Below, in pieces: positions 7,059-32,611 of a DNA stretch of 32,611 nt. The DNA is from Bacteroidaceae bacterium (lineage in GTDB: Bacteria > Bacteroidota > Bacteroidia > Bacteroidales > Bacteroidaceae), in NCBI GenBank assembly GCA_017444485.1, contig JAFSWM010000062.1, positions 1-32,611 of the forward strand, given 5' to 3'. Each line of letters begins with the position of its first letter. Positions within the stretch are counted from its first letter, which is position 1. A program made the translations under genes and the position numbers. Below the pieces are notes generated by a model. The model had not been told where the DNA came from, made no database searches, and saw nothing but the letters and a program-made list of their open reading frames with translations.

Positions 7059-7141
7059 GGGTGCAATAGAATTATATTCATTGACCATTGATGATTGACC
7101 ATTTACCATTACCAATACCGGAAGGTGTGGCTTTGAGAATG

Positions 7142-7337
7142 TTCAATGTTCATCGGTCAATGTTCATCGGTCAATGTTCAATGTTCATCGGTCAATGTTC
7201 AATGTTCAACGGTCAATGTTCAATGTTCAATGGTCAACGGTCAATGGTCAACGGTCAATGGTCAACGGTCAATGTTCAATGTTCAATGGTCAACGGTCAA
7301 TGGTCAACGGTCAATGGTCAACGGTCAATGTTCAATG
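7142..7337 (+). repeat. Heptamer tandem array, 28 units of KTCAWYG
   Basis: The units are GTCAATG, TTCAATG, GTCAACG, TTCATCG and TTCAACG. Phase is kept without a break for 196 bases (28 x 7). Variation is limited to positions 1, 5 and 6. The sequence translates into the repetitive peptide FNVQ/VNGQ, which is not a gene. Confidence 0.95.
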
Positions 7338-7396
7338 GTTAAAACCTGCGGGCGGGGACGCCCGCGCTCCCAGCGTTTGCAATAGGCGGACTGACG

Positions 7397-7540
7397 ACCT
7401 TAAAACCTTAAGACCTTAAGACCTTAAGACCTTAAAACCTAATAACCTTAAAACCTAATAACCTTAAAACCTTAAGACCTAATAACCTTAAGACCTAATA
7501 ACCTTAAAACCTTAAGACCTTAAAACCTAATAACCTTATT
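7397..7540 (+). repeat. Octamer tandem array, 18 units of ACCTNANR
   Basis: The units are ACCTTAAA, ACCTTAAG and ACCTAATA. Phase is unbroken for 144 bases (18 x 8). The array directly abuts the stop codon (7541-7543) of the minus-strand gene to its right. Confidence 0.95.
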
Positions 7541-9040
7541 CTACCTTACCTTCTTCCCTGTAGGCTCGCCCTCGTTCTGTATGCGGTTGAGGGCAGTGAC
7601 GACGTAGTAGCCAGGGGTTTTCTCGCCAGGCTGGGCTATCTTGCAGAAAGGATACTTCGTGACAGCGACAATGGCGGAGGGATCGGCAAGGTTCATGCGG
7701 CCCTTTGAGGCGAAGCGATACACAACGTATTTCGCTGGCTTGTCGCGCCACGAGGTGGAGGCAGGGGCTTCCCAGTAGAGGAATGTGCCGTCCTTGATGG
7801 TCTCGGTCTTGATGCGCCGCACCTTGCCCGGGGCTACATCGGTGAGCCACGGCATGGCGGGCTGCAGGGCGGTGTAGCGGTGATAGGTCAGTTCGAGGCG
7901 GCGCGCATAGTCGTTGTAGTTGTCGGCGATGAGTTTGCTATACCACAGGCATGAGCCGTCCACGCCCAGCGTTTGGCGTTGCTGCGTCAGTTTGGCATCC
8001 ATCTGGTTCACCTGCGGATTCAGCGGGTCGGCATACTGCATGGTACGCTCCACGTCTTGTCCGATGATGAGCGGACGCCCGCTGCAATAGCGTGCCCACC
8101 ACTGCACCAGTTCCTTATAGTCCGCCGTGGGGTGGCCGATCTGCCAGTAGAGTTGCGGCACCACATAGTCCACCCAACCTTGCTTCACCCACGTGAGCAC
8201 ATCGGCATAGAGGTCATCGTAGTTCTGCAACCCAGCCGTGGCGCTGCCGGGGATGTTGTCGCCCGCCTTGGCATTGTGATAGATGCCGAAGGGCGACACA
8301 CCAAACTTCACCCACGGCTTGGCGGCACGCAGCGTGTCGTGCAGTTGGCTGATGAACTGGTTCACGTTCTGCCGGCGCCAGTCGGCCTTGCTCTGGGTGC
8401 TGAGGCCGTAGAGTTGGTAGGTGCGATCGTCGGCCAAGGTCTGGCCGCTGACGGGGTAGGGGTAGAAGTAGTCGTCGATGTGCAGGCCGTCCACGTCGTA
8501 GCGCCGTACGATGTCGCCGCACACATGGGCGATGTACTCGCGGTTCTCGGGGCGTCCGGGGTCGAAGAGCAATAGCCCGTCATAGGCAAGGAAGCGGTCC
8601 TTGTTCTTCCAGTACGGGTGCGACGCCGCCAGTGCCGTCGTCCCCTTCGTCTTGGCGCGGAAGGGATTGATCCAGGCGTGGATTTCCATCCCACGGCGGT
8701 GGCACTCCTGCACCATCCAGGCCAGCGGGTCCCAGTAGGGGCTGGGCGGTGTGCCTTGCTGTCCGGTGAGGAAGCGACTCCACGGCTCCAGGGCCGAGGC
8801 ATACAGCGCGTCGGCCTCGGGGCGCACCTGGAAGATCACCACGTTGCAGTTTGCCTGTCGGAGCGCATCAAGGTGGCGCGTCAGTTCAGCCTGCATGCGC
8901 TCAGCGCCCAAGCCTTGGAACTGTCCGTTCACACATTGTATCCACGCGCCCCGGAACTCCCGCTTGGGCTGGGGCAGTTGCTGCGCCCCCACCACGGCGG
9001 CATAGGCGACGAGGAGCGAGAGAAGAAAAGTCTTTTTCAT
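7541..9040 (-). CDS. Secreted GHL10-type glycoside hydrolase (DUF187/DigH-like)
   Basis: This 499-residue protein has a signal peptide (MKKTFLLSLLVAYAAVVGAQ) and the glycosyl-hydrolase-like 10 barrel: REFRGAWIQCVNG at the first strand, NVVIFQVRPEADALYAS, GMEIHAWINPFRA, and DVDGLHIDDYFYPYP with acidic residues in catalytic position. Near the end, about residues 410-495, a fibronectin-III-like domain can be read (TFLYWEAPASTSWRDKPAKYVVYRF). E. coli DigH of this family cuts peptidoglycan glycan strands lacking peptide stems; the same activity here is plausible but not shown. The start at 9040 is chosen because it begins the signal peptide; upstream in-frame ATGs add residues lying in the promoter region. 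The TAG stop directly abuts the octamer array. Confidence 0.88.
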   Translation of the reverse strand: MKKTFLLSLLVAYAAVVGAQQLPQPKREFRGAWIQCVNGQFQGLGAERMQAELTRHLDALRQANCNVVIFQVRPEADALYASALEPWSRFLTGQQGTPPSPYWDPLAWMVQECHRRGMEIHAWINPFRAKTKGTTALAASHPYWKNKDRFLAYDGLLLFDPGRPENREYIAHVCGDIVRRYDVDGLHIDDYFYPYPVSGQTLADDRTYQLYGLSTQSKADWRRQNVNQFISQLHDTLRAAKPWVKFGVSPFGIYHNAKAGDNIPGSATAGLQNYDDLYADVLTWVKQGWVDYVVPQLYWQIGHPTADYKELVQWWARYCSGRPLIIGQDVERTMQYADPLNPQVNQMDAKLTQQRQTLGVDGSCLWYSKLIADNYNDYARRLELTYHRYTALQPAMPWLTDVAPGKVRRIKTETIKDGTFLYWEAPASTSWRDKPAKYVVYRFASKGRMNLADPSAIVAVTKYPFCKIAQPGEKTPGYYVVTALNRIQNEGEPTGKKVR

Positions 9041-9064
9041 AAATCCCATTATCGTTTCAGCCGC

Positions 9065-9072
9065 CAAAATTA
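9065..9072 (-). promoter_or_regulatory. Possible promoter (-7 element) of the GHL10 gene
   Basis: On the minus strand TAATTTTG matches TAnnTTTG, 24 bases before the start codon. A TTTG lies upstream at 23 bases, slightly more than the ideal spacing, so support is moderate. Confidence 0.4.
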
Positions 9073-9213
9073 AGGTTTTACGCGCGAAAAAGCGCCAAAA
9101 CCCCATAGTTTTCTGCAATAGGGAGTGGTGTGGTGCGATCATCCCCGCGAACATATGCAAGATGGGTGACTCGTATCTCTGTCATTTCCTTGTATTATCC
9201 AGTCTGCAAAATA

Positions 9214-9248: not shown

Positions 9249-9289
9249 TTCTAGAGTGTGGCTTATTATGGTTGGCTTGCGCCGTGTGC

Positions 9290-10450: not shown

Positions 10451-10660
10451 GTTTTCTATTGACCGTTCTTCATTGACCATTGACCGTTGAAAATTGAACA
10501 TGAGCAAACGTCAGCCCGCCTATTGCAAGGGTTGGGAGCGCGGGCGTCCCCGCCCGCCGAAGCGCTGAAAGCAAAACCCGCGAGCGCGACGCCCGCGCTC
10601 CCAGGGATGCAATACCGGAAGCAAGAGGTTTTGCTAACGGTCAATGTTCAATGTTCAATG
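10451..10660. repeat. Mosaic intergenic repeat block between tRNA-Met and ccsA
   Basis: The 313-base gap 10369-10681 holds the tRNA promoter and then this block. Left to right: reverse heptamers (about 10451-10500), reverse hairpin module (10509-10557), linker CGAAGCGCTGAAAGCAAAA (10558-10576), forward hairpin module (10577-10606), linker with GCAATACCGG and GGTTTTGC (10606-10636), and forward heptamers (10638-10660). The stretch 10505-10616 is nearly identical to 19819-19930. Confidence 0.9.
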
Positions 10661-12008: not shown

Positions 12009-12016
12009 CAAAAGTA
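12009..12016 (-). promoter_or_regulatory. Possible promoter (-7 element) directly before ccsA
   Basis: On the minus strand TACTTTTG fits TAnnTTTG and ends only 4 bases before the GTG start, which would give a leaderless or near-leaderless mRNA. No TTTG is seen 19-21 bases upstream, where octamer repeats lie. Confidence 0.35.
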
Positions 12017-12180
12017 GATTTCTAGGTTATGAGGTTATTAGGTTTTAAGGTCGTCAGTCCGCCTATTGCAAGCGTTGGGAACGCGGGCGTCCCCGCCCGC
12101 AGGTATGTGTTAGGTTCAGAGGTTTTGAGGTTCTAAGGTCTTGAGGTTGTCGCGCAGCTCCTTACAACCTTATAACCTCA
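12017..12180. repeat. Mosaic intergenic repeat block between ccsA and the glycosyltransferase gene
   Basis: Left to right: reverse octamers (AGGTTATG type, 12022-12051), reverse hairpin module (12052-12102), degenerate reverse octamers (12103-12148), core GTCGCGCAGCTCC (12149-12161), and forward octamers ACAACCTTATAACCTC (12164-12179). The last units overlap the 3' end of the glycosyltransferase gene and include its stop codon. Confidence 0.9.
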
Positions 12181-13057
12181 AAAGATAGAATCCAAGTTTG
12201 TAGAACTGAAAGAGGGTGAGGGAGGGGCGGCGACTGAGCAGGTTGCGGCGTATCAGGTGACGAGTAGCACGGAAGAGAAGACGGACGGGGGCTGCCAGGT
12301 GCATACTTTGTAGGCGCATGGCGAAACGCGAAAGGCCGATACGTTGTTTATAGGCCAGGGGCAGAGTGTGGAGCGTACGCATGGCGGCTTCGGTGTTGGC
12401 GAGGAAGTGGATGCTGGGGTTGATGCCGCTGTGAAGCAGGGCGTTGTCAGTGTGAAGGACGGGGATGCCGAGTTCTTCCAAGCGCAACCCGAAGAGCACG
12501 TCTTCGTAGCCGTATTCCGTGATGCTTTCGTCAAAAGGTGCACGCTCCATCACGTAGCGGCGCAGCAGCAGTTGGAACGTGGCGATGCGGTCGTAGGGGT
12601 GGCGGTTGCGGTAGGCGGCAGTACGATGTCCGCTCTTCTCGGCTGCGGTTTCGTATTTGTAGCGCAGTTCGCAGTCTGGTGGTGCGGGTGGTGCGGGGTT
12701 GGTGAGTGCGCCACAAACCACAGGCGCTTTTTCGGCGTCTTGCAGGTGACGGGCGATGAAGTCGTCGCTACACACCAGGGCATCGCTGTCGATGAAGAGG
12801 AGCAGTTCGCCGCTCGACTCCATATATAATATATTGCGTGCGTGTGCTCTGCCTTGCCGCGCGGTTTGCTGAATGACGCGGCACGCTCCAGTTTGCTCCA
12901 TGCGCTGGAGGGCGGTGAGGGTTGCCGCATCGTCGCTCGCATCGTTGAGCACCAAGATTTCGTAGTCTATGTGCAAGGCTTCTGCCTGGTGACGCAAAGC
13001 CTCTATCAACGCCTCGGGTGCGAGGTTATGGGTGGGGATAAGGATGGAGAGCCTCAT
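12170..13057 (-). CDS. Family 2 glycosyltransferase
   Basis: This 295-residue protein is a GT-A fold inverting glycosyltransferase. The N-terminus MRLSILIPTHN is the GT2 nucleotide-sugar strand, VLNDASDD carries the early acidic pair, and LLLFIDSDALV (DSD at 90-92) is the metal-binding DXD. ITEYGYEDVLFGLRL near 190-205 is the ED motif of the likely base region. The C-terminus is basic and amphipathic and may sit at the membrane. Its start overlaps the stop of the PorE-like gene by 4 bases (ATGA), so the two are translationally coupled. The last codons (Leu-Arg-Leu-stop) are made by octamer repeat sequence. Donor and acceptor cannot be predicted. Confidence 0.92.
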   Translation of the reverse strand: MRLSILIPTHNLAPEALIEALRHQAEALHIDYEILVLNDASDDAATLTALQRMEQTGACRVIQQTARQGRAHARNILYMESSGELLLFIDSDALVCSDDFIARHLQDAEKAPVVCGALTNPAPPAPPDCELRYKYETAAEKSGHRTAAYRNRHPYDRIATFQLLLRRYVMERAPFDESITEYGYEDVLFGLRLEELGIPVLHTDNALLHSGINPSIHFLANTEAAMRTLHTLPLAYKQRIGLSRFAMRLQSMHLAAPVRLLFRATRHLIRRNLLSRRPSLTLFQFYKLGFYLLRL

Positions 13058-15156: not shown

Positions 15157-15201
15157 ACTTATATATAAACACGCGCGGGGCGGTTTTATTGTGTGCGAGG
15201 C

Positions 15202-15409
15202 GTTGAACATTGACCGTTTTTCATTGACCATTGATCGTTGACCATTGACCCGTAGCAAAAACACACGTGCTGCTGGTATTGGTAATGGTCAATGGTCAAC
15301 GATCAATGGTCAATGATAGATGCGGGCGGGGACGCCCGCGCTCCCAATGCTTGCAATAGGCGGGCTGACGATTGCTAATGGTCAATGGTCAATGGTCAAC
15401 AGTCAATGA
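15202..15409. repeat. Mosaic repeat block between divergent porE-like and U32 genes
   Basis: The 340-base divergent gap 15157-15496 holds, left to right: reverse heptamers (15202-15250), a linker with GCTGGTATTGGTAATGG (15251-15288), forward heptamers (15283-15317), forward hairpin module (15321-15370), and more forward heptamers (15371-15409). The remaining 15410-15496 holds the U32 promoter. I see no TAnnTTTG element for the leftward gene. Confidence 0.9.
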
Positions 15410-15429
15410 AAGTAGGCTGCGGCTCGGTA

Positions 15430-16738: not shown

Positions 16739-16970
16739 GGACCTCAAAACCCAAAATAAGGTTGTAAGGTTATAAGGTTATGAGGGCCTCAAAACCTTAT
16801 AACCTCAAAACCTCAAAACCTAATATAAAGTTGTAGGGCCATCGCGTAGCCCCCTGGGAGCGCGGGCGTCTCGCCCGCGGTAGCGCTGATGCGAGCGGGG
16901 ACGCCCGCGTTCCCAACGTTTTCAATAGGCGGACTGACGACCTCAAAACCTAATAATCTCAAAACCTAAA
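16736..16970. repeat. Mosaic intergenic repeat block between the U32 gene and ribF
   Basis: Left to right: a short forward octamer stretch, reverse octamers AAGGTTGTAAGGTTATAAGG (about 16758-16785), then forward octamers to about 16825, together forming an 18-position hairpin around 16786-16790. Next are the core GGGCCATCGCGTAGCCCC (16836-16853), a reverse hairpin module (16855-16880), a forward hairpin module (16890-16939) and forward octamers up to the ribF start. The long hairpin could act as a transcript 3' end for the U32 gene. Confidence 0.9.
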
Positions 16971-16971
16971 A

Positions 16972-17859
16972 ATGAGTTTCTTCGCCACCATAGGCTTTTT
17001 TGATGGTGTGCACCGCGGCCACCGCTTTCTCTTAGACCAATTGCAGGCAGAGGCCACTGCTGCGGGGATGCAGTCTATGGCAGTGACCTTCGAGAACCAT
17101 CCCCGTGAGGTATTGGAGGATGGCGACGTCGCGGCGCCCCTCTTACTCACTACCACCGAGGAGCGTCTGTCGTTGCTCCGCGCAGCGGGCATCGCCCGTG
17201 TGGAGGTGCTTCGTTTCACGTCTGCCACGGCGAGCCTTAAAGCAGTGGACTTCGTGCAGCAGGTGCTGCTCCCGATGGGGGTGCGCGGGTTGCTCATGGG
17301 TTTTAACCATCACTTTGGCAGCGACCGCGAAACCACCTTCGAAGCCTTGCAAGCGCAAGCGGCAGGTATGGGTGTCAAGATAAAACGTGCCGTGCCACTT
17401 CCCGATGGCCCCGTCAGTTCTACCCGCATCCGCCGTACCGTATCCCTCGGACAGATGGCTGATGCTGCCGTTCTGCTGGGGCGTCCCTACACGCTGACCG
17501 GCACCGTGAACCACGGTAGGCAGATAGGTCGCACCATGGGTTTTCCCACTGCCAACGTTGTCCCTCCTGCCCGTAAACTGCTCCCTGCCGATGGTGTGTA
17601 CTTCGGCAGAGTGATGTTCTCCGAACCGCGTCCCGCGCTTATCAACATCGGCACCCGTCCCACGCTGGGCGAAGGCGGCGAGCGCACCGTTGAGGCGCAT
17701 ATTATTGGTTACGCTGGTGACCTCTACGACCACACACTCACTATCTCCATCAACCATCGCCACCGCGCTGAGCATACTTTCGGAAGTCTTGCAGCACTTC
17801 AAGCGCAGTTAGAAGCCGACCGTGCGGCTTGTCTGTGCCATTATTCCATTGACTATTGA
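16972..17859 (+). CDS. ribF: Bifunctional riboflavin kinase/FAD synthetase RibF
   Basis: RibF phosphorylates riboflavin to FMN and adenylates it to FAD. The 295-residue protein has the nucleotidyltransferase motif ATIGFFDGVHRGHRFL at residues 5-20, SSTRIRRTVSLGQM near 145-160 closing the FAD-synthetase domain, and the flavokinase motif NHGRQIGRTMGFPTANV near 180-196. The N-terminus is short: in relatives some 15-20 residues usually precede ATIGFFDGVH. Octamer repeats end about 2 bases before the ATG, so the usual 5' segment may have been lost or replaced. The last residues SIDY and the TGA stop are made by heptamer repeat sequence (CCATTGACTATTGACC). Confidence 0.95.
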   Translation: MSFFATIGFFDGVHRGHRFLLDQLQAEATAAGMQSMAVTFENHPREVLEDGDVAAPLLLTTTEERLSLLRAAGIARVEVLRFTSATASLKAVDFVQQVLLPMGVRGLLMGFNHHFGSDRETTFEALQAQAAGMGVKIKRAVPLPDGPVSSTRIRRTVSLGQMADAAVLLGRPYTLTGTVNHGRQIGRTMGFPTANVVPPARKLLPADGVYFGRVMFSEPRPALINIGTRPTLGEGGERTVEAHIIGYAGDLYDHTLTISINHRHRAEHTFGSLAALQAQLEADRAACLCHYSIDY

Positions 17860-18055
17860 CCATTGACCATTGAACATTGACCATTGACCGTTGAACATTC
17901 GCAAAACCCATTGCAACCGGTATTGGCAATGGTCAATGGTCAACGGTTAACGGTCAATGATAGATGCGGGCGGGGACGCCCGCGCTCCCAACGCTTGCAA
18001 TAGGTGGGCTGACGACCTTAAAACCTCATAACCTTAAAACCTCATAACCTTAGAG
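17843..18055. repeat. Mosaic intergenic repeat block between ribF and the CPBP gene
   Basis: Left to right: reverse heptamers beginning inside the ribF 3' end (17843-17898), a linker with GCAAAACCCATTGCAACC and GGTATTGGCAATGG (17899-17935), forward heptamers (17930-17960), forward hairpin module (17965-18014) and forward octamers (18015-18055). Nothing promoter-like is seen. Confidence 0.9.
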
Positions 18056-18831: not shown

Positions 18832-19798
18832 TCTCGGGCCGCGCCCCGTGCTTCTCGCCCCGATGGAGGATGTGACCGATATCGGGTTCCGCCTGCTCTG
18901 TCGCAGGATGGGGGCTGCGATGGTTTATAGCGAGTTTGTGGCTGCCGACGCGTTGGTGCGCTATGTCAAGCCCACGCTCGCCAAACTCAAGGTGTGCGAT
19001 GAGGAACGCCCCGTGGCGATTCAAATCTATGGCAAAGACCCCGTGGCGATGGCCGATGCCGCACAAATCGTTTACGAACAGGCTCGCCCCGACGTGATCG
19101 ACATCAACTTCGGTTGCCCCGTGAAGCGTGTGGCAGGCAAAGGAGCAGGGGCAGGACTCTTGCAAAACGTGCCGTTGCTGCTTGACATCGCCCGTGCCGT
19201 GGTGCAGGCAGTACCCATACCCGTCACCGCCAAGACACGCCTGGGGTGGGATATGAACCATCTCATCATCTCCACGCTCGCCGAGCAACTGCAAGACACC
19301 GGCATCAGCGCCCTCACCATACACGGACGCACCCGCTCGCAGATGTACACCGGTGAAGCCGACTGGACGCTCATCGGGCAGGTAAAGGCCAACCCCCGCA
19401 TGCACATCCCCATCATCGGCAATGGAGACATAAACTCCGCGGAACGTGCCCGAGCGGCCTTTGAGCGCTACGGGGTGGATGCCGTGATGATAGGGCGTGC
19501 CACCTTCGGTCGCCCATGGATATTCCGTGAGATACGGAATGCCGAGGTGGGCCTTGCCGACGAACTCACGCCAGACGTCAAGTTGGACATCCTCAAACAG
19601 CAGGTCATTGAGAGCGTCAGCCGCATTGACGAGAAGCGCGGCATCCTGCACATCCGCCGCCATCTCGCTGCCACGCCATTGTTTAAAGGAATACCCGACT
19701 TTCGCTCGCGCCGCATCGCCATCCTGCGTGCGGAAACACTCACTGAACTCTTCGCTATGCTTGAAGAGGTGCGTCCGCTGGTGCGTGAACATCATTGA
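18812..19798 (+). CDS. dusB: tRNA-dihydrouridine synthase (DusB type)
   Basis: Dus enzymes reduce uridines in the D-loop of tRNA with FMN and NADPH. The 328-residue protein carries the family motifs in order: VLLAPMEDVTDIGFR (FMN-binding start), INFGCPVKRVAGKGAGAGL with the catalytic C102, VTAKTRLGWD, ALTIHGRTRSQMYTGEADW, IPIIGNGDI, and VMIGRATFGRPWIF. Length fits the DusB/Dus group. RibF, which supplies FMN, is two genes upstream; this may be coincidence. The final codons are His-His-TGA, where CATTGACC is the first heptamer of the next block. Confidence 0.95.
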   Translation: MQIGTIDLGPRPVLLAPMEDVTDIGFRLLCRRMGAAMVYSEFVAADALVRYVKPTLAKLKVCDEERPVAIQIYGKDPVAMADAAQIVYEQARPDVIDINFGCPVKRVAGKGAGAGLLQNVPLLLDIARAVVQAVPIPVTAKTRLGWDMNHLIISTLAEQLQDTGISALTIHGRTRSQMYTGEADWTLIGQVKANPRMHIPIIGNGDINSAERARAAFERYGVDAVMIGRATFGRPWIFREIRNAEVGLADELTPDVKLDILKQQVIESVSRIDEKRGILHIRRHLAATPLFKGIPDFRSRRIAILRAETLTELFAMLEEVRPLVREHH

Positions 19799-20058
19799 CC
19801 ATTGACGATTGACCATTACAAACGCCAGCCTGCCTATTGCAAGGGTTGGGAACGCGGGCGTCCCCGCCCGCCGAAGCGCTGAAAGCAAAACCCGCGGGCG
19901 AGACGCCCGCGCTCCCGGGGATGCAATACCCGTTGCAATGGGTTTTGCGAATGTTCAATGTTCAATGGTTAAAACCTGCGGGCGGGGACGCCCGCGCTCC
20001 CAACGTTTGCAATAGGCGGACTGACGTCCTCACGACCTCATAACCTTACAACCTAATA
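19792..20058. repeat. Mosaic intergenic repeat block between dusB and the giant-protein gene
   Basis: In the 396-base gap, left to right: reverse heptamers (19792-19817), reverse hairpin module (19823-19871), linker (19872-19890), forward hairpin module (19891-19920), linker with GCAATACCCGTTGCAATGGG (19921-19949), forward heptamers (19950-19968), another forward hairpin module (19977-20026) and forward octamers (20027-20058). The final 136 bases (20059-20194) are unique sequence holding the promoter. Confidence 0.9.
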
Positions 20059-23100: not shown

Positions 23101-26100
23101 GGGTTCACAATGGCATCTCGTAAGCGGCAATCTGACACCCCATTTATACACTCAAAGCTCCCCCACCTATGCCACCGTCCTGTGGGACGACCGCGCCAAG
23201 GTGGTGCTGGGCATTGAAAAATTCATTGGCAACAGCGAGGCCAACGTTCCTGAAGGAGTCTTCGCCATCAGGAGTCAAGCCGATTGGAACACTTTTGCGA
23301 AGATGGTGGAGAATGCCAAAGGAGAAAGCGATGTGAATGCCATCCTATTAGACGACATCTCTGTCACCGAAACGGTGGGAACAGCCGAAGCCCCCTACCG
23401 AGGCACCTTTGACGGCTATGGCCACACCCTCACACTCAACATCGATGCGACCGAAGACTATATAGCCCCCTTCCGCTATGTAGCCCACACAACCCACATC
23501 AAACAACTGAACGTAAAGGGCGAAATCACAGGCTTTAACAATACCTCAGGGCTTGTAGGTTATTCAACCGACGACGGAACACTCACCATTGAGAACTGCC
23601 GCGTTTCTGCCCACGTCTATTCTAATGGTGGAAACGTCGGCGGATTCATCGGTCATGGCAACTCGGCCACGAACATCATCCGCAATTGTCTTTTTGATGG
23701 AGGACTGAAAAACCACTACCCGTTAACATACTATTTTGCCTGTGCAGGAGCCTTTATCGGTGCCATCACAGTGGACGGATACTATAAACTCACCGAAGAA
23801 AACAACCTTGAGCGGGGTGAAGGATACCTTAATTTCAACAATGTCGGCGCCAACATCCACCAAATAGACAAGAACACCACCGAAGCGTTTGCAGGTACCA
23901 ACACTTGGACTTACACCCAAGATTGGAGTTCTGTGAATAGAGTCCCTGCCGACATGACAGCCGAACAGTTGGTAGTCAAGTTAGATAAGACACAATGGCA
24001 AGTTGATGAAGAAGGAAACGTCGTGCCCATGCAGCCAGAGAGCAAGGAAACTGTGCTGTACAACGAACGGCGCGAACTGACAAAAGAGGAATTGGCAGCA
24101 GGCCGCTTCACGCAGCAACTCAACACCTCGTGCGTGAACCATCGTTTCAGCTTCACTACCGAACAAGGCTCTTCGAAGCTCACACCCATCAGTTCAGAAA
24201 GTGTGACGCCCACACGAGTTGAAGCCGACAAAAACTTTGTCTATACCTTCAACAACAATGTGCAACTCACCTCCATTAAAGCCGACACCTTGCAAACAGC
24301 TGTCACCCTTACATGGGAAGCAACTGGCCTTGGCGACTACTACCGCATTGTGCGCTACGACAAGATGACAGATAAGACCGATACGTTGGTGGCCGCTTAC
24401 GACCAAATGACGTACATGGACCGCACCCCGCAACCACAACACGCCTACGTCTATACCATTGAGGGCATCACGCAGTGCGAAGGCACGCACGTGAGTTCCA
24501 TAGATATCACCGCTGGTTGTGAGCCAACGGGCATGGTGCGCGGCTATCTGCGCTTGGCCGACGGCACCGCTATGGCGGGTGTCACCGTGAAAGCTACGCC
24601 CAGGAGCGGCAACTTCGTGGGAGCTGTAACGAAAACCACCAAGACCGATGAAGCAGGCTTCTTTGAGATTGGTGGGCTGATTTACCAAGGTTCGGCCACC
24701 TACCAGATTTCTGTTGAAACAACAGGCGAGATGCAGGCTATGGATGTGTTGTCGGCAACCTTTGACGACACGAAGAACCTCATCACAGACCTGCGCTTCA
24801 CGCAGTCTAACTACTATCGCTTCTCGGGACAGGTGGCCTACGAAGGCACAAGTGTCCCAGTCGTCGGCGCACAATTTGAACGCGACGGAGCCATCGTGAA
24901 AAATGGTTCTGGCCAACCTATCATCACCGACTCGCAAGGAAAGTTCACCCTTAGTGTACCTCAAGGCACCCACACCATTCGGGTGGTAAAGGACGGACAC
25001 GTCTTTGCTGACGGCGGTTTCTTCCTCGATGCCGACGATGTTGAACCCACGAAGCACAATTGGCAAAAAGAAGTGGCTGGTTACATCTTCTGGGACCAGA
25101 CGCGCGTTACACTCCGTGGCCGCGTAGTGGGTGGCGATGACCAGGGCGATTTGCCCTTAGGCCAGTCGCTGTCGCGAAACAATCTTGGCGACTCTATCAC
25201 CATCGTTATGCAACTGGAAGGCGACAACGCCTCCTACCTCATACGCGACCAGCTCAATGCCAACATCACAGAGCTACACCACAGATTCCCCGTTGGTTTG
25301 ATTGACACGTGCGATATTGATGTCTATCGTCATCGCCTCGTTATTCATCCCGATGCACAGACGGGCGAATATGCCGTACCGATGCTTCCCGTCAAGTACA
25401 AGGTGACAGAGGTCTATGCACAGGGCTATGCCACACTCTTCCAGTCGGGCGAGGTAGGGCAAACCATCGACCTCACTCGGTTCGCTAATAACGATACCAC
25501 CACGTGGAACCGCATCTATCACACACCGCCCACGTTGGCTGTCAGGCAGTATAACATGACTGGCAAGACCTACTTCGGTATCAACAAATATACCGATATG
25601 GACAACACGGGCAAGAACTATACTATAGAGCTTTGGAACGAAACTACGGGCTATAGTTTCGGGCATCCCGTCTTCATGGCAGGCAGTCCTGTTATTCTCA
25701 TGCTGGCTGCCGAGGAGCAATACTATTGGAACAACGACACCAAGCGATACGTGCCCGATGTGGTGCACTTGCCTGGTGGAAGAGTCTATATAGAGAATGG
25801 CCTCATTGGAACAGACAAGAATGATGTCATAGAACTGGACGACATCGGTGAAGCCATCTATTCCTTCACGCCGCAGAACCTCACCTTTACAGAAGAGGGC
25901 GACATGGCACTGAAAACGCTCACCATTAGTTTGGAGTACGACAGCACGTTCTACGACATCAAACCACTCGATGGCGAACTGCTCAGAGGCTATGTTCTGG
26001 CATCTCAGCCCGTGGCTCAAGGACGGCGTGTGATGAGCGATGGCGGCACCTGCCTCATCGACATCCTACGCGACCCACCTGGTGTGAATTCAAGTGCCTA

Positions 26101-29100
26101 TATCGAAAGCGGAACAAAGCTGAACTACTCGTTCACACAAAGCGTGACAACACAAGCTGGTGTGAAACTCGAACTGAGCAACGGCGGCGGAAGTAGCTGG
26201 TATAATGGCGTATTTTCTGGAGTTGGAGGAGGAAGTGTTGTGGGACAAATCAACAATGTCAGCAGCACGCAACTTGCTACACTACCTATCGTAGCCACCT
26301 ACTATAACAACTGGCAATACAACTACACCTTCGAAACCACCGAGCGCATCAGCACCGGCACAGGACAGTTGGCCGTAGGACGCGATGCCGACGTGTTTAT
26401 CGGCATGACGCGCAATGCGGTAGTGGAAGATGCTATTGCTGTACGCGCCATTACGGACGAGACCTACCAAATTATAAAGAACCACGAAGGCGGTTCGTTT
26501 ACGATGAATGGTGTAAACTACAATGTGCGCCAAGGCACCATGAAGGTATTGGCACAGGGGCAGAATAGCAAGGGCGAAAAAGTTTGGATTGTGCGCGATG
26601 AAGTGTTGCAAGTATCATCACACATCAACAGCACGTTTGTGCACTCTCAAGTTCATATTGAGCAAGAACTCATCCCCGAACTCATCAACATTCGCAACTC
26701 GCTACTCCTGACTCCCGGAACCAGTGAAGAAACAGCACAAGCCATAGCCAACCAGCGAGGTTTCCCCGCTTTCATTAGCAAAGTGCCTGCCGATGATGTA
26801 AACTTCGCTTCCGAGGGGTATTACACCCAAGTAAATCCCACTACGGAAGGCGGTTTAACAAACGACTCCATCCAAGCCCTGAACCGCACCATCTTGACGT
26901 GGATAGGTTTCCTCGCTGTGAACGAGCGAGAGAAAGTGGAAGCATCAGATCTCGTAAAGACTTACGACGTTGATGGCCGTGCCAGTGTCAGCTATAACGA
27001 AGCCTTCACGCTATCAAAGAGCGAAAGTCGCTACTTCCTCTTCCCGTTAATACAAGGAACTGGAGGATTCTCCACTGGAGGATTTGGAGTGAGAAGTCCC
27101 GATGTGGGTCATTCCAATAAATCAACCAATGACAACGAGCAGCACATCGAAATCGAAACTTTTGGCAACAAGATAGCCATCAAGCTTAGCGTAGTAGCCT
27201 CGCTTGACTATAATTATAATTATGGAAAGAATGAGACGGAGGTCAAGAAAGTAGGTTTCACCCTGGCTCCGAGTACAAAGTCAAACTTGGTGGTTAGCGT
27301 GTATCGCACACAAACCAATTCGCAAATTCTTGACGATCGTCGCGCCGCCTTGCTTGATGCGGGCCACGACGAAGAGGATGTTGACCAAATGCTCTTCATG
27401 TATGCCAGCGAGGATTTCATCAAGAATATCCGGTTAGGCGGTAACGGCGTGCCGGGCAATCTGGGTGGCATGTGTAGCTACATGACCTCCGCGCCGCAGA
27501 TGTATCGCAGCCTTGTCTATCGCACGCAAGGCGGTGCTACCAGTGCTCCTTACGAAGACGAGCGCCGCACCAAATACTACAATCCTGGTACGCTGCTCGA
27601 TGCCAAGACCATTGAGATAGACCGTCTGCGCATTTGGGCTGACGAACAGACCGTAAGCAACGTGCCCTACGACGAGCCTGCACGCTTCACCATTCATATG
27701 GCTAACGAGAGCGAAGCGCCTGCTCTGGCAACGCCGGTATTCTATTTCTTTATTGATGACAGCAGCAATGCAAAGGGTGCTAAAGTGCAGGTAGAGGGTG
27801 TACCCCTCTCGGGTAGCGGTTCGTCAGTTGTTATTCCTGTTGGCACAGTCGTGACGAAACAAGTTGAAATCTATCCTGGGGCAGAGTTTGACTACGAAAA
27901 CATCGGTATCAGCCTCTACGACCCCAACGATAAGGCACGTGTGCAAAAGGTTAACCTGACGGCTCACTTCGTGCCCACGGCAGGAAAGGTGAACATCTCT
28001 CTGCCTGGCGACAAGTGGGTGGTGAACACTGAGTCGCAGTTCGATGACCGTCTGCAACAATACTATATGCCTGTAGTCATTGACGGTTTTGACGTGAACT
28101 ATCGTGGCTTCGACCACATTGAGTTACAATACAAGTTGGCCACACAGGGCGACAAGGAATGGGTAAACGTATGCTCGTTCTACAAAGACCCTCTCCTTAT
28201 GGCCAAGGCCAGCGGTGTGTGCGAGCTCATCAAGGACGATGGTCGCATCGTGGCTAACTTCTATGGTGAAGTAGATCCTATTGAACAGGAGTACAACCTG
28301 CGTGCAGTGAGCTATTGTCGCCACGGCAGTGGTTTCCTCACCCGTTCGTCTGCCATACTGACTGGCATCAAGGACACCCGTCGTCCCGGGCTCTTTGGCA
28401 CGCCGAGACCTGAAGACGGCATTCTCGACATCGGCGAAGACATCATGCTGCGCTTCTCTGAGCCGATCGCCGGCAACTATTTGCGCGAACTGAACAACTT
28501 CCAAGTGCTTGGACAAACCAATTCGAGCAACATCACGCTCTCCACCGACCTACGCTTCAACGGCTACGGGTTGGCCTCTTCTCAAGCGACACGTAACTTG
28601 ATGGGCAAGTCCTTCACGGTGGATGTGATGCTTTATCCCGACAAGATTGAAGAAGGCATGAGCTTCTTCTCGCATGGTGAAAACGGAAGTTACTTAGAAC
28701 TTGGTCTGACTGCCGACCACCGTTTGATGGCTGCCTTTGGGCAATCTGACACCACGGGGCTACAAACCAAGGTGTACACCAGTACCGAGCCTGTAGCCTT
28801 CAATGGCCTACATCAAGTGTTCTATACGTTTGAGAATGACATCGTCAATCAAACCACTACGGTCCGTTTCTACGACGGCACGAAGCAAATCGGTTCGTTC
28901 GTTCATCCTGCTGCCTACAATGGTTATGGCAGCATCAACCTTGGTCAGGGTGCAGGAATAATCAAAGAGAACGTTTTCTACAGTGGCGAAATGCTTGAAT
29001 TCCGTTTGTGGAATCGTGTGCTCTCCACCAGTGAGATGAGCGATTACAGCCTGAAGATACTCACGGGCTATGAGTTGGGCTTGCTCGATAACTTCCCGCT

Positions 29101-31777
29101 CAATGAGGGACGTGGTGAGTATAGTTACAACCGTGTGGCTTCAGGGAGCGACCTCGCTCTATACGAAATTTCATGGAAGGTGCCCGACGGCATAGGCATG
29201 ATACTCGACGGGCAGGAGGGGTTCCGTCTCAAGCCCGATAAGTTCCAACGCTGGGACCACCAGGATTATACCTTGATGTTCTGGTTCCAAACAAGTGATG
29301 ACTCGGGTACGTTGCTTGCCAATGGCCGTGCTGAAGACGAGGCGGAGGCCTCCGAACATTTCCGCTTCAGTGTTCGTGATGGATTACTGGAACTGCATCT
29401 TGGCGGTTTGAAGGTGCCTACTACAAGGTATGTTGGCGATGGGCAGTGGCACCATATTGCCCTAACGATGAACCGCTCAAGGAATTTGGGTAGTCTCTAT
29501 CTTGACAAACAGCTGTGCCAAACCTTTGCAGTGGACACGCTGGGTGGCATCAATGGCAACAACTTAGCAGCGGGTGCCCTCTATGACGGCACAGGCATTT
29601 CCCAGCCTATTCACGGATGTATTGACGAAATCGCAATGTTTGAGATGGCGCTGCCCGAGAATAGCATCAAGAATTTTGCTACTACAACGGCGACGGGCGA
29701 TTTAATGGGCTTGATGGCCTATCTGAGTTTCTCGCAGAACGAGTTGCAGATGAATGGTCTGCAGCGACTGATGCCCACTGGTGTGAGTCTGAAACGCTAC
29801 AGAGACATGGCCACCGGACAGCTGACTGCTGCGCGCGACACGATTGTGGCCCAAGACGTTGTGGACCGCCTGGCTGATCGCACCATATATGCTCCGATGC
29901 GCGATGTGCAGACGCTCGAAAACATTAAGTACAGTTTCGTTGCTGATGGTAAGGACCTGCTCATCAACCTTGATGTGCCCGACGAGCGCATTGAGAAGAC
30001 CAATGTCTTCATTCTTGTTCGCGATGTGGCCGACCTGCAGGGCAACCTGATGGCTTCGCCTGTTGCGCTGGAACTCTATGTCTATCGCAATCCGCTACGA
30101 TGGAATGTGAAGCGCGTCTCGCTTACGCCTAACTACGGCGAGGAATATACTTTTGAGGCCACCATTCAGAACCTCAGTGGCAAGACGCACCAATACGCTT
30201 TGGAGGGGCTGCCCATTTGGATAACGGCTTCGCAAACGAGTGGTCGCATAGGGCCTTTGGACGAGGAGACTATCACCTTCACCATATCTCCCTACATCAA
30301 CATTGGCGACTTTGATGAGGTGTTCAATCTGATCGGCGAGGAGGGCATGAACGAGCCTCTGCCTGTCAGCATCAGGGTGCGTGGCGATGCTCCAGAATGG
30401 AGTGTGGACCAGGCCCTGTTGCGCGCCAACATCACGATGAACCTTATGGCACGCGTGGGTATTGAAGGCCGAATGATGAACGACCCCGAGGACCGCCTGG
30501 CCGTCTTTGGCGAAGGACATCGCACGCTGGGCGTGGCGAAGCTGAATGCCAGCGATGGCATTGCCTACCTCACTATCTACAACAGTTCCTCGGCTGCTAC
30601 ACCGCTGCGCTACGAGTTCTACGATGCTTCAACTGGCATTATCCACGTGCTACTTTCTACAGATGAAGTGGGCTTCTTCCGTTCGGGTGCCGTGGTGGGT
30701 ACGCCCGATGATCCTTATGTCTTTGGAACGAACAATGCGGTGGTGCAGACGCTGCATTTGCAGGAGGGATGGAACTGGATTTCCTTCAACGTACATCCAG
30801 AGTCCCTGTCTGTGGGCGAGTTGCTGAATAGTGCTACGAAGTGGGAAGTAGGCGACGGACTGGAAGTCATAAGGCCCAACGGCACCTATGCACAGATTTC
30901 CTACAAGCAGTTCTACAACCCCGACGACCCGAAGAATCCCATCTATGCTTGGGACGAGGCCGATGCGGTGGTTAACCTCGACCCGCAACAGATGTATCGC
31001 TTCTACAGCCACAGCCAAAAGACTGGATACGTTTCGGGTTACACTGCCTACGAACACATCACGGTGAAGCCCGACTGGAACCGTATCGGCTATCTCTCGC
31101 GTCTGAACCTGCCTATTGGCACAGCGTTGGCCGACTATACCGATGATGCTTCTATTGGCGACATCATCAAGTCGCAGTCCGAGTTTGCCGTACTGACCGT
31201 CGATGCCTCTGGCAACAGAACGTGGCGAGGCACCTTGCAGTACATGAAGGCTGGCGAGGGCTATATGCTCAAGCGCAATGCTCGCAGCAATGCCACTTTC
31301 CGCTATCCGCTCTACGACGGACAAACGCGCTATAATGGAAGTGCTGCGATGCTTCCAGCGGCATTCCACAACACAAGCGGCACGAGTATGACCGTTGTGG
31401 CTACGGCCCAAGGTATCGACACCGAGGAGGGAGACATCCTGACGGCCTATCGTGGCGCAGAAGTTTGTGGTGTGGCAATAGCCGATGCCGATGGCTTGTT
31501 CTTCCTCAATGTGGGCGATGTGGATGCTGCAAGCGATGAACTCAGTTTCACCCTGGAGCGCGAAGAAGAAATCATTGGTCAGGCCGCAGGCCGCCAAATG
31601 TTCTACGCACCCAATGCCGCCCATGGAACGCCGGAACTGCCCACGGCCATCAACTTCGTAGAGAGCCGCGACGTCTATGGCGAGGGCTGGTACACCGTCG
31701 GGGGCATACGGCTCACCAAACGCCCCACCGAAACTGGTGTTTACATTTATAACAATGAGAAAGTGATAATTAAGTAA
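20195..31777 (+). CDS. Giant multidomain surface protein with T9SS-like C-terminal tail (3860 residues)
   Basis: I do not recognise a named gene. A hydrophobic segment (LMVLAIMFTMGFGSLSA, about 18-34) acts as signal peptide; starts at residue 1, 7 or 14 are all possible. After N-terminal beta-rich and fibronectin-III-like regions there are three copies of a GLUG/beta-helix-like module starting near residues 473, 715 and 1030 (DWNTF...GTFDGNGHTL...NCLFDG). Another fibronectin-III-like domain (about 1359-1439) and three carboxypeptidase-regulatory-like domains (about 1447, 1542, 1638 on) follow. Two LamG-like domains lie at about 2785-2960 and 3003-3175, a BACON-like segment at 3305-3400, and two GWNWISFNV-type repeats near 3525 and 3622. 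About 3725-3810 resembles the downstream lipoprotein. The end GVYIYNNEKVIIK resembles a T9SS sorting tail. The frame is unbroken. A surface adhesin or glycan-binding role is likely but unproven. Confidence 0.85.
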   Translation: MIHRRGMHLEPHGMVERLMVLAIMFTMGFGSLSANILRTDDDDTNAPEDAWRYTVMLSAVDQLKLEMPCYDDTGYDSWIDKGYVYITIDGTGNKETLFYYESDDKDDDFPDVCGNKGVEGDMVLSRDQNYSSINVTNTKEKWSIPKVSGTNYSILRLTWSIPDKYRGKSVTISWGIHKTGNGPAGPAGESSKDIVINSSTIQIPAMPAPIYPSAQAPMLGYDAAHAGTMMLVYTMPCNTIDKLTAYYVEENGADQLNRMVNIDPNVSGNLYLPVDRCYRNFYIVANYKDSENKSRTTQSQPFDLAMLHNASALSASLSSDGKVRLSWVVPDRHWHDLIESDFWEIQRCTSGVPTLNSQWSTIGQLTYDIGAKQYEFVDEDMISAFEGNPVYYRVRRTSTALWDWAPGTFAITQLTSIPALSSVQNATVGRSLWNDQQHAVNITFNMGSPGLTVKEDGLAYDERGHAVLRTAKDWNTFAAEVNSGQTTLGAIMAADINLGETLTMVGTTENPYSGIFDGNGHVLSFNPVPPTETDTVAFKEEYVAPFRYVGSATIRNLHVTGSISSSKKYIAGFVAKVNSKLTIDNCRSTVNLISSVKGEAHNGGFVAQSSSSTNVNISNSLFDGSFEGAECHSNGGFVGNGLSQVYISNCLFAPANLLTLKDNCDNFICTPYVGVSHVSHSYSLKSYKVGSGSDIIVSNSNTDSEGRFVINNIDDWNTFVKKVSNAGGAEVNAVLNTDLWINALQDRISSQYHGTFDGNGHTLHMNSQVLFPSAKDFTIKNLHVAGETLGGIHTAALVGHSESSSGKRNLIQNCRVSAMVSCKDGTHAGGFIGHSGSSNNTIENCLFDGQFEFWSSEGFGGGQYAGAFIGWGNSGTSNVVVNCLEKGSSYKGVAHAGLNYANGGNVYGGTNCWTYSNWGEANKVDTLKADELVAKLGFTNWSAASGQVLPIMHKLMLADASKTELLTALGSQWHLVSGNLTPHLYTQSSPTYATVLWDDRAKVVLGIEKFIGNSEANVPEGVFAIRSQADWNTFAKMVENAKGESDVNAILLDDISVTETVGTAEAPYRGTFDGYGHTLTLNIDATEDYIAPFRYVAHTTHIKQLNVKGEITGFNNTSGLVGYSTDDGTLTIENCRVSAHVYSNGGNVGGFIGHGNSATNIIRNCLFDGGLKNHYPLTYYFACAGAFIGAITVDGYYKLTEENNLERGEGYLNFNNVGANIHQIDKNTTEAFAGTNTWTYTQDWSSVNRVPADMTAEQLVVKLDKTQWQVDEEGNVVPMQPESKETVLYNERRELTKEELAAGRFTQQLNTSCVNHRFSFTTEQGSSKLTPISSESVTPTRVEADKNFVYTFNNNVQLTSIKADTLQTAVTLTWEATGLGDYYRIVRYDKMTDKTDTLVAAYDQMTYMDRTPQPQHAYVYTIEGITQCEGTHVSSIDITAGCEPTGMVRGYLRLADGTAMAGVTVKATPRSGNFVGAVTKTTKTDEAGFFEIGGLIYQGSATYQISVETTGEMQAMDVLSATFDDTKNLITDLRFTQSNYYRFSGQVAYEGTSVPVVGAQFERDGAIVKNGSGQPIITDSQGKFTLSVPQGTHTIRVVKDGHVFADGGFFLDADDVEPTKHNWQKEVAGYIFWDQTRVTLRGRVVGGDDQGDLPLGQSLSRNNLGDSITIVMQLEGDNASYLIRDQLNANITELHHRFPVGLIDTCDIDVYRHRLVIHPDAQTGEYAVPMLPVKYKVTEVYAQGYATLFQSGEVGQTIDLTRFANNDTTTWNRIYHTPPTLAVRQYNMTGKTYFGINKYTDMDNTGKNYTIELWNETTGYSFGHPVFMAGSPVILMLAAEEQYYWNNDTKRYVPDVVHLPGGRVYIENGLIGTDKNDVIELDDIGEAIYSFTPQNLTFTEEGDMALKTLTISLEYDSTFYDIKPLDGELLRGYVLASQPVAQGRRVMSDGGTCLIDILRDPPGVNSSAYIESGTKLNYSFTQSVTTQAGVKLELSNGGGSSWYNGVFSGVGGGSVVGQINNVSSTQLATLPIVATYYNNWQYNYTFETTERISTGTGQLAVGRDADVFIGMTRNAVVEDAIAVRAITDETYQIIKNHEGGSFTMNGVNYNVRQGTMKVLAQGQNSKGEKVWIVRDEVLQVSSHINSTFVHSQVHIEQELIPELINIRNSLLLTPGTSEETAQAIANQRGFPAFISKVPADDVNFASEGYYTQVNPTTEGGLTNDSIQALNRTILTWIGFLAVNEREKVEASDLVKTYDVDGRASVSYNEAFTLSKSESRYFLFPLIQGTGGFSTGGFGVRSPDVGHSNKSTNDNEQHIEIETFGNKIAIKLSVVASLDYNYNYGKNETEVKKVGFTLAPSTKSNLVVSVYRTQTNSQILDDRRAALLDAGHDEEDVDQMLFMYASEDFIKNIRLGGNGVPGNLGGMCSYMTSAPQMYRSLVYRTQGGATSAPYEDERRTKYYNPGTLLDAKTIEIDRLRIWADEQTVSNVPYDEPARFTIHMANESEAPALATPVFYFFIDDSSNAKGAKVQVEGVPLSGSGSSVVIPVGTVVTKQVEIYPGAEFDYENIGISLYDPNDKARVQKVNLTAHFVPTAGKVNISLPGDKWVVNTESQFDDRLQQYYMPVVIDGFDVNYRGFDHIELQYKLATQGDKEWVNVCSFYKDPLLMAKASGVCELIKDDGRIVANFYGEVDPIEQEYNLRAVSYCRHGSGFLTRSSAILTGIKDTRRPGLFGTPRPEDGILDIGEDIMLRFSEPIAGNYLRELNNFQVLGQTNSSNITLSTDLRFNGYGLASSQATRNLMGKSFTVDVMLYPDKIEEGMSFFSHGENGSYLELGLTADHRLMAAFGQSDTTGLQTKVYTSTEPVAFNGLHQVFYTFENDIVNQTTTVRFYDGTKQIGSFVHPAAYNGYGSINLGQGAGIIKENVFYSGEMLEFRLWNRVLSTSEMSDYSLKILTGYELGLLDNFPLNEGRGEYSYNRVASGSDLALYEISWKVPDGIGMILDGQEGFRLKPDKFQRWDHQDYTLMFWFQTSDDSGTLLANGRAEDEAEASEHFRFSVRDGLLELHLGGLKVPTTRYVGDGQWHHIALTMNRSRNLGSLYLDKQLCQTFAVDTLGGINGNNLAAGALYDGTGISQPIHGCIDEIAMFEMALPENSIKNFATTTATGDLMGLMAYLSFSQNELQMNGLQRLMPTGVSLKRYRDMATGQLTAARDTIVAQDVVDRLADRTIYAPMRDVQTLENIKYSFVADGKDLLINLDVPDERIEKTNVFILVRDVADLQGNLMASPVALELYVYRNPLRWNVKRVSLTPNYGEEYTFEATIQNLSGKTHQYALEGLPIWITASQTSGRIGPLDEETITFTISPYINIGDFDEVFNLIGEEGMNEPLPVSIRVRGDAPEWSVDQALLRANITMNLMARVGIEGRMMNDPEDRLAVFGEGHRTLGVAKLNASDGIAYLTIYNSSSAATPLRYEFYDASTGIIHVLLSTDEVGFFRSGAVVGTPDDPYVFGTNNAVVQTLHLQEGWNWISFNVHPESLSVGELLNSATKWEVGDGLEVIRPNGTYAQISYKQFYNPDDPKNPIYAWDEADAVVNLDPQQMYRFYSHSQKTGYVSGYTAYEHITVKPDWNRIGYLSRLNLPIGTALADYTDDASIGDIIKSQSEFAVLTVDASGNRTWRGTLQYMKAGEGYMLKRNARSNATFRYPLYDGQTRYNGSAAMLPAAFHNTSGTSMTVVATAQGIDTEEGDILTAYRGAEVCGVAIADADGLFFLNVGDVDAASDELSFTLEREEEIIGQAAGRQMFYAPNAAHGTPELPTAINFVESRDVYGEGWYTVGGIRLTKRPTETGVYIYNNEKVIIK
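21611..24060 (+). repeat. Three-fold internal module in the giant protein
   Basis: Three diverged copies begin with DWNTFA at 21611, 22337 and 23282. Each continues with an aspartate-rich NAxLxxDI stretch, PYxGTFDGNGHTL, and one or more GGFIGH...IENCLFDG turns. Copies two and three also end alike (TNCWTYSNW and TNTWTYTQDW). The pattern suggests a right-handed beta-helix or GLUG-type fold built by duplication. Confidence 0.8.
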
Positions 31778-32071
31778 GGTTGTAAGGTTTTAAGGTTATA
31801 AGGTTATAAGGGGCTGCGCGACGCCCTCATAACCTCACAACCTCATAACCTCACAACCTCATAACCTCACAACCTCATAACCTCACAACCTCATAACCTC
31901 ACAACCTCATAACCTCACAACCTCATAACCTCATAACCTCACAACCTCACAACCTCATAACCTCACAACCTCACAACCTCACAACCTCACAACCTCATAA
32001 CCTCACAACCTCACAACCTCATAACCTCAAAACCTCATAACCTCATAACCTTAAAACCTCATAACCTCAAA
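31775..32071. repeat. Octamer repeat block filling the giant-lipoprotein gap
   Basis: The block begins at the TAA of the giant gene with four to five reverse octamers (TAAGGTTG, TAAGGTTT, TAAGGTTA). The core GGGGCTGCGCGACGCCCTC (31810-31828) follows, then 30 forward octamers (ACCTCACA, ACCTCATA and a few ACCTCAAA/ACCTTAAA) in unbroken phase from 31832 to 32071. Only TCCT separates the last unit from the lipoprotein start codon. The left part can fold into a hairpin around the core. Confidence 0.95.
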
Positions 32072-32075
32072 TCCT

Positions 32076-32537
32076 ATGAAACCAACGTATCTTCTGACCA
32101 TTCTCATCGCCCTTGCGCTCTGTGCTTGCAGTTCCGATGAGGGCGATGTAGAGGCAACGCCTTCCTTCCTGCTGCAAGGAACAGACGCACGCCCCACATC
32201 ATGGATAGCACCCGACTATTCGGCCTATGAACTCACGATGTCGGTCCAAGTGCAACTGGGTGACACGCTTGCCAAGTTTCAGAGTGAGCAAGACCTGATG
32301 TGCGCCACCATTGCGGGCGAAGTGCGCGCCGTGACAGTGCCAAAATCTACGATGAACGAGGTTTACTACCCCCTGACCATTGCCGGCAATGCAGGCGAAC
32401 AGACCATTGCGTTGCAATACTACTGCGCCCGCCTGAGCCGCATCTATACCATCCAGGGCTGGGCCGTGTTCGACCCTTCGGCGGCACCCACCGGCGACGA
32501 CGACCTCTACCATCCATGCTTCACTGCAACCTATTAA
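32076..32537 (+). CDS. Small lipoprotein paired with the giant surface protein
   Basis: No named family is recognised. The 153-residue protein has a clear lipoprotein signal (MKPTYLLTILIALALCAC, Cys18 in the ALCAC lipobox) followed by an acidic SSDEGDVE linker, a layout often linked to surface exposure in Bacteroidota. The rest is one beta-rich domain. Read by eye it aligns without gaps over 17 residues with the giant protein: E71-T87 here (EQDLMC...GEVRAV) against about 3745-3761 there (EGDILT...AEVCGV). The following LFFLNV and VYYPLTI strands also agree. It begins 298 bases after the giant gene, separated only by repeats, and is probably co-transcribed. Its TAA stop merges with reverse octamers. 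Confidence 0.8.
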   Translation: MKPTYLLTILIALALCACSSDEGDVEATPSFLLQGTDARPTSWIAPDYSAYELTMSVQVQLGDTLAKFQSEQDLMCATIAGEVRAVTVPKSTMNEVYYPLTIAGNAGEQTIALQYYCARLSRIYTIQGWAVFDPSAAPTGDDDLYHPCFTATY

Positions 32538-32611
32538 AGGTTATAAGGTTATGAGGTTATAAGGTTATAAGGGGCTGCGCGACGCCCTCAAAACCTTATA
32601 ACCTCAAAACC
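32538..32611. repeat. Octamer inverted-repeat block after the lipoprotein, running off the window
   Basis: Reverse octamers (AGGTTATA, AGGTTATG) lead to an exact second copy of the core GGGGCTGCGCGACGCCCTC (32571-32589). Forward octamers (AAAACCTTATAACCTC) then continue to the last base. The two arms can pair into a long hairpin around the core. Confidence 0.9.

Follow-up and report, generated by a model that had tools for sequence, protein, structure and literature searches.

The gaps between genes in the 32,611-b stretch of Bacteroidaceae DNA analysed here (the window, which is the whole of contig C21 of the draft genome G000; 2,235,276 b in 115 contigs) contain inverted arrays of short tandem repeats, and these belong to a real, genome-wide repeat system common to part of the genus. 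With somewhat better than even confidence, the gaps are occupied by dispersed palindromic insertion elements that are non-coding and fall into two families, heptamer-armed (H) and octamer-armed (O), the arms of which can expand independently. Dispersal, a conserved core, polarity, independence of the arms, sites filled here versus overlapping in relatives, and gene stops within arms were supported directly. In the mechanism proposed, each element would have an asymmetric, conserved core flanked on either side by an arm, the two arms being inverted and built of tandem heptamers in H and of tandem octamers in O; elements would arrive as units between genes, including those of operons whose genes overlap in relatives; each arm would then grow and shrink on its own through tandem duplication, frequently two units at a time; and a third family, a GC hairpin similar to repetitive extragenic palindromic (REP) sequences, would be nested in or lie beside H and O. 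Polarity would be fixed because it is a property of the element and is inherited with it, and H arms, by closing all three frames from a neighbouring gene, may favour survival of the element at gene ends.

Modules were scanned on both strands of a sample comprising the window and 40 further stretches of the same genome (758,633 b, 34%), in which 551 genes were called with a simple hexamer-based caller (uncurated, starts approximate); nine stretches of the window were also read directly, and at least two units were required for a run. All sampled stretches lay on contigs with a prior module match and many were picked for length, so that array frequencies may be overestimates. The repeats resolve into three layers, namely H elements, O elements, and the REP-like GC hairpin in or beside them. 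The main units are the heptamer KTCAAYG and the octamer ACCTHAHR. The H core, CATTRCYAATACCRG..GCAAWGGGTTTTGCKAATG, spans 35-37 nt. Its 16 strict sample copies were split 7 to 9 between the strands; in co-directional gaps, 9 ran along the genes and 6 against them. The O core spans about 19-27 nt around GGGGCTGCGCGACG. A mini-hairpin, GCGNAGC, seen in the cores of 11 of 40 listed array pairs of the genome, all octamer, and in some relatives, had no control and was not used. The GC hairpin was intergenic in 67 of its 70 sampled copies and lay within 250 bp of an array in 53; within 150 bp, 29 copies had a partner copy on the opposite strand and 2 had one on the same strand, and 39 were alone. 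In the composites inspected, it was located inside H cores or between core and arm. The tail described in the initial annotation was carried by 31 of the 70 copies. The exact tail 18-mer occurred in 11 stretches among 257 billion bases of named genomes, a collection that may omit this or very near genomes, which is near the estimated chance number (about 15), and in none of 60 relatives.

In the whole genome, three-unit matches numbered 297 + 201 for heptamers and 322 + 153 for octamers, whereas the same patterns read backwards gave 0 in both cases, so the matches are not due to chance; exact 24-base matches to the GC hairpin with CTCCC numbered 37 + 28 (control, 0). Thus the modules, for which the initial annotation had called for a genome-wide copy count, are not confined to the window. 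Several contigs start inside repeats (for example C37:7, C61:71, C62:24, C83:64, C88:5 and C104:38), where the assembly seems to break, and the copy numbers are therefore lower bounds. Heptamer runs in the sample numbered 48 in the forward and 45 in the reverse sense, and octamer runs 59 and 51, respectively. They occupied 71/412 co-directional, 10/50 divergent and 8/48 convergent gaps, frequencies which indicate that no gene arrangement is preferred. The earlier statement that nearly every gap is filled holds locally, for the window, which was the second densest of 41 stretches; in the sample, 89 of 510 gaps held a run. Density was uneven, with a variance 4.3 times that of a Poisson distribution, and nine of the 41 stretches (17-20 kb; L053, L054, L057-L059, L066, L145, L146 and L148) had no runs. 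Foreign or odd composition was rejected as the cause of these array-poor stretches, as density was uncorrelated with G+C at third codon positions and with tetranucleotide distance (Spearman -0.05 and 0.04, 41 stretches). Neither three-unit pattern was present in 24 of 36 same-genus genomes.

Polarity was far from chance, in agreement with the earlier observation that reverse units stand on the left of a gap and forward units on the right. This was true of every window gap having runs of both, the reverse units of the first gap being degenerate and seen by reading. Of 59 sampled gaps with runs on both strands, 57 were reverse-left, two were mixed and none was opposite; both mixed gaps lie in L143 and are series of whole elements. 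The same sense was found in all 6 divergent, all 3 convergent and all 8 heptamer/octamer hybrid gaps, while gaps with runs on one strand only had them on the expected side in 26 of 30 cases and on the other side in 4. Whole-genome pattern counts, which include nested matches of single elements, gave 199 reverse-core-forward heptamer matches versus 3 opposite, all three at one spot where a stray unit follows an ordinary element, and 163 usual octamer matches versus 29 opposite; the opposite ones inspected (C93, C100 and C1) were junctions of successive elements. Stretches fetched from relatives had the usual polarity in 13 of 13 cases (3/3 in divergent gaps), the usual:opposite pattern counts being 31:0 in G035, 9:0 in G022, 17:0 in G003 and 5:0 in G017, and among the other 57 genomes from the genus search the opposite sense was found only in G076 and G033. 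The initial annotation had noted correctly that orientation ignores gene direction; however, the unit is dyad-symmetric, so this independence is expected and in itself uninformative. The informative and surprising part is that only one of the two possible dyad senses is used, hybrid gaps included. Whole O elements also recur every 63 bp in head-to-tail series, at L143 5939-6385 and L186 from about 1390.

Inverted arms made of the same units might be taken to arise by inverted copying, which had been suggested in the initial annotation and by which, after a strand switch at the hairpin, one arm would be copied from its partner; at L061 11322-11413 the pairing is indeed unbroken outside the core. 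However, the two arms of an element resembled each other in composition no more than arms drawn from different elements did (permutation p 0.76 for 23 H and 0.95 for 29 O), left and right arm lengths were uncorrelated (Spearman 0.26 for H, p 0.22; -0.32 for O, p 0.09), and the duplex energy of an element's own arms was no better than that of permuted arms (p 0.64 for 14 H and 0.97 for 17 O). Moreover, eight gaps mix heptamers and octamers. Ancient copying could have been erased by later slippage, but as the source of the present arms inverted copying is highly improbable. Identical units occurred two apart in 50/112 H comparisons (0.34 expected) and 50/111 O comparisons (0.13 expected); one apart, the counts were 46/141 and 27/136, and three apart, 33/83 and 24/86, the last a lesser excess than at two. 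An excess at two is what short-block tandem duplication within each arm would leave and speaks against arm-to-arm copying. Tandem duplication of arm units is thus supported.

Some genes end within arms. Genes were considered when their 3′-end lay no more than 40 nt inside or 30 nt outside a run of proper orientation; perfect units contained the stop of 18 of the 41 such genes at heptamers and of 7 of the 25 at octamers (25/66 together), and gene-stop distances peaked at -6, -13 and -20. The window gene ribF, for example, ends ...CHYSIDY, its final codons coming from heptamer-like units and its stop TGA lying in an imperfect reverse heptamer. Within three units, reverse heptamers closed 204/204 frames and forward heptamers 0/204 (68 arrays), which makes H arms well suited to overlie gene ends; for octamers the corresponding values were 205/243 and 122/243 (81 arrays). 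In G035, five heptamer runs fell within called genes (L073 5745, 7188 and 8260; L075 432 and 17181), a single gene holding three of them, and all five were in the stop-free sense. These observations would also suit a footprint of selection, by which arrays land either way and only those presenting stops survive. Nevertheless, divergent gaps are polar in this genome and in the relatives, octamers are polar while their forward units also close half of the frames, so that with this partial asymmetry stop supply is not the whole cause of polarity, and a like polarity is found in Xanthomonas with a perfect unit, GGGAATC, that has no stop in either orientation. Polarity as mainly a product of such selection is therefore unlikely.

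RNA folding of 12 chosen stretches (11 in this genome and 1 in G035) gave z values of -3.8 to -12.5 and beat all 200 shuffles in each of the 12. The claim that the gaps fold as hairpins is thereby borne out; the folding excess is what any inverted arrays would give. The same excess could be expected were the arrays functional binding sites or RNA signals of each gap, such as a protein-read repeat or a terminating or protecting hairpin, with polarity reflecting the function. This alternative, possible but with a distinctly lesser chance than insertion elements, gains from the non-random unit variants. In G000, G017 and G003, the octamers share their variable positions and, for the most part, the letters found there, and the main heptamer variants are common to G000, G035 and G022, despite diverged ribF (identity to that of the window 41% in G017 and G003, 46% over 232 residues in G022, and 56% in G035). 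Position 5 of the octamer is rarely G (1/500 here, 1/75 in G017 and 1/57 in G003; 1/3 in G033); but G is also rare at position 7 (14/500), so its lack at position 5 may be general. A stop-codon code at position 5 was for this reason regarded as suggestive and not relied on; position 6 was no freer with A at position 5 (9/147) than with another base (44/450; runs of at least two units). A binding role has also been suggested by MacGregor for TAACTGA heptamers, in the part of the study consulted, by proteins or in translation (PMC4679880). On the other hand, arms of one element gave no indication of being matched for pairing, and presence is patchy over gaps, stretches and same-genus genomes, as described above.

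Comparison with relatives revealed filled and overlapping sites. The gap between ribF and the CAAX-protease gene is 198 bp here, while the two genes overlap (-4 nt) in G018, G035, G015 (L097) and G066 (L115), and in several further relatives the gap was estimated to be within about 15 nt. The U32 and ribF genes overlap by 4 nt in L095 (G035), L103 and L105; in G018 they are separated by 144 bp containing another array type, and in many relatives by about 640-790 bp, apparently with a further gene, which makes these intervals not comparable. The thrA-GHL10 gap is 482 bp here versus 43 bp in G018. Where a syntenic relative had been fetched, the gap here was larger than the median of the relatives for 5 of 7 gaps with arrays versus 7 of 24 without.

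The arms are kept in some relatives while the cores differ, with a GGCT..CGCGACG core in G035 and CCATNCGGNCTG-like cores around like arms in G003, G009 and G017. G018 has the GC hairpin (5 + 2) without any three-unit heptamer or octamer match, and the array in its U32-ribF gap consists of AGGTT units on the left and AACCT units on the right. In the same genome, the nearest by ribF, inverted arrays with AGGTTAA-like units on the left and TAACCT or CTAAAC-like units on the right were seen at L126 12770-12921 and L123 8770-8944, which suggests further unit families with a like layout.

Several observations weigh against insertion elements with arms that benefit from supplying stops. H and O showed neither target duplication nor a terminal cut site, and no transposase dedicated to them was found; G003 and G033, both drafts, have octamer matches but no Y1 transposase match. 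Octamer matches in G076 were 4 opposite versus 1 usual, and in G033 one each. The relatives are distant, with a best ribF identity of 60%; the ribF-CAAX gap is about 44-112 bp in some of them, and two of the seven array gaps were not above the relative median (154 versus 156 bp, and U32-ribF). The phase match between stops and heptamers is partly automatic, because a frame entering a heptamer arm must end at the TGA of that arm. Stop selection cannot be the sole cause of polarity, since no coding frame enters the divergent gaps, nor is stop supply its general cause, given the stop-free Xanthomonas unit.

The features of the window are listed below. The modules that had been reported for eight gaps and the window end were all present at those places, by direct reading and scanning. 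As to the range given for them, from 7079 onward, the module scan of both strands found the 1-7 kb block and the GHL10-nagB gap free of runs (two or more units), consistent with it, but a GC palindrome was located at 72-99.

Table. Repeat features located in the window
Position	Strand	Feature	Basis or remark
72..99	no strand	GC palindrome of the same hairpin family (D11), isolated	direct reading; outside the range claimed earlier
7079..7103	-	left arm, degenerate reverse heptamers	direct reading
7104..7141	no strand	H core variant, ACCAATACCGG...	
7142..7337	+	right arm, 28 forward heptamers	module scan
7348..7396	+	GC hairpin, tail GCAATAGGCGGACTGACG	
7397..7532	+	17 forward octamers	module scan
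10457..10500	-	left arm, reverse heptamers	
10509..10606	no strand	REPIN-like inverted GC hairpin pair, left-hand tail	
10610..10660	+	H core remainder and right arm of forward heptamers	
12014..12182		reverse octamers, GC hairpin (left-hand tail), reverse octamers, O core, forward octamers	
15201..15412		divergent gap: H element (reverse, then forward heptamers), GC hairpin with tail, forward heptamers	
16741..16971		U32-ribF gap: one forward octamer, O-type inverted arrays, GC hairpin pair with tail, forward octamers	
17846..18054		ribF-CAAX gap: reverse heptamers, H core (17896-17931), forward heptamers, GC hairpin with tail, forward octamers	
19792..20058		reverse heptamers, REPIN-like pair, H core remainder, forward heptamers, GC hairpin with tail, forward octamers	
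31775..32072		O element: reverse octamers, core GGGGCTGCGCGACGCCC, 30 forward octamers	
32537..32611		O element truncated by the contig end	

In the U32-ribF gap, the single forward octamer at 16741 stands to the left of the reverse octamers. A single open frame of 3,860 aa (20195-31777) is flanked by two element-filled gaps. Promoter-like TTTG/TAnnTTTG motifs may point to Bacteroidota.

No published account of KTCAAYG or ACCTHAHR units was listed by the searches made of open PMC papers. The analogy with REP sequences and their mosaic arrangements (BIME), drawn in the initial annotation, applies to the GC hairpin layer, which, like REP sequences and their inverted doublets (REPIN) as far as these are described in the portions of the reports consulted, is a short palindrome in many copies, mostly intergenic and often in inverted pairs (PMC6006769, PMC3733652); it does not extend to the heptamer and octamer arms, with which REP sequences are not described in those portions. 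A Y1_Tnp domain, as in REP-associated tyrosine transposases (RAYT), was present at C79:45873-46097; an inverted pair of hairpins lies 130 bp from it. Among the 12 commonest four-base feet before the hairpin (58 of 70 copies; tail orientation, one foot) none was a GT[AG]G tag; these four bases were ACCT in 18, ACCC in 8, TTCG in 7, and others. In the CGTC-tagged REP class, according to the parts of these sources consulted, CGTC lies beside an 8-9 bp stem that opens with A/T (PMC3733652, PMC6006769), while here, by reading, the 7-bp stem is GC-only and CGTC, at the end of the tail, is about 27 nt away from it. The domain on C79 lies in frame inside a restriction-modification enzyme (L066 13665-17192) with translated repeats around, between the methyltransferase and target-recognition domains of an MmeI-type protein (Pfam scan). 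By eye, apparently the same arrangement was seen at L182 (G035 C47), a RAYT/Y1 domain near the C-terminus of another methyltransferase-like protein at L183 (G016 C3), and a second Y1_Tnp gene of plain IS200 appearance on C84.

Elements similar to miniature inverted-repeat transposable elements (MITE), such as NEMIS, RUP and RPE, are likewise small palindromes in gaps, some with stops in all frames and some read in frame inside genes, as given in the part of the source consulted (PMC2229807). By the same account they have terminal inverted repeats of set size (PMC2229807), whereas the termini here are expandable tandem arrays of variable length; target duplication was not seen here, in comparison with relatives too distant to read it.

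The cyanobacterial heptamer analogy made earlier is a good one as to the heptamers, but Xanthomonas is closer. According to the portion of that report consulted, TAACTGA direct repeats occur in Beggiatoaceae, Cyanobacteria and five Bacteroidetes, with 169 sets in the main genome, one of them indirect, and with related units rarely repeated (PMC4679880). Shared features include intergenic arrays near start codons, some covering the stop codon of the preceding gene, every frame closed in one sense, and gaps that are array-free in some close relatives; the TAACTGA units are, however, direct repeats and those here inverted, and upstream of starts the stop-bearing sense is found there, in contrast to the stop-free heptamer sense here (PMC4679880).

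The inverted GGGAATC arrays of Xanthomonas appear to be the closest known case found. In the part of that study consulted, which concerned G-quadruplexes, (GGGANTN)n heptamer arrays form 70 and 75 close convergent (inverted) pairs in two genomes, and long arrays adjoin different genes in two related species (PMC4692102). As far as that part goes, the two systems share heterogeneous heptamer arrays of variable length in gaps, paired convergently, and with the same sense relative to gene starts and stops (PMC4692102). The units here are KTCAAYG and ACCTHAHR rather than GGGANTN, an octamer family is present too, and conserved cores (none being mentioned in the part consulted), nested GC hairpins, stops in arms and near-absolute polarity including divergent gaps, which are rare array sites in Xanthomonas, set this system apart (PMC4692102). 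The units here have no GGG run, so the G-quadruplex proposal is inapplicable, and the layout does not need G-quadruplexes. Inverted heptamer arrays with a fixed gene-end sense are thus not tied to G-quadruplex units or to Xanthomonas. The genus offers a case where units and polarity persist while cores change, and overlapping genes versus a 198-bp element provide before and after sites for repeat origin and effects on operons. Heptamer, octamer and Xanthomonas arrays might, as a tentative and rather doubtful generalization, be separate members of a wider bacterial class of 'armed' elements with dyad symmetry. In such a class the core could be exchanged, but different species would retain the arm units and the inward direction of these units, as punctuation that separates neighbouring frames from either side. 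The layout is known from Xanthomonas, but is found here with different repeats and cores.

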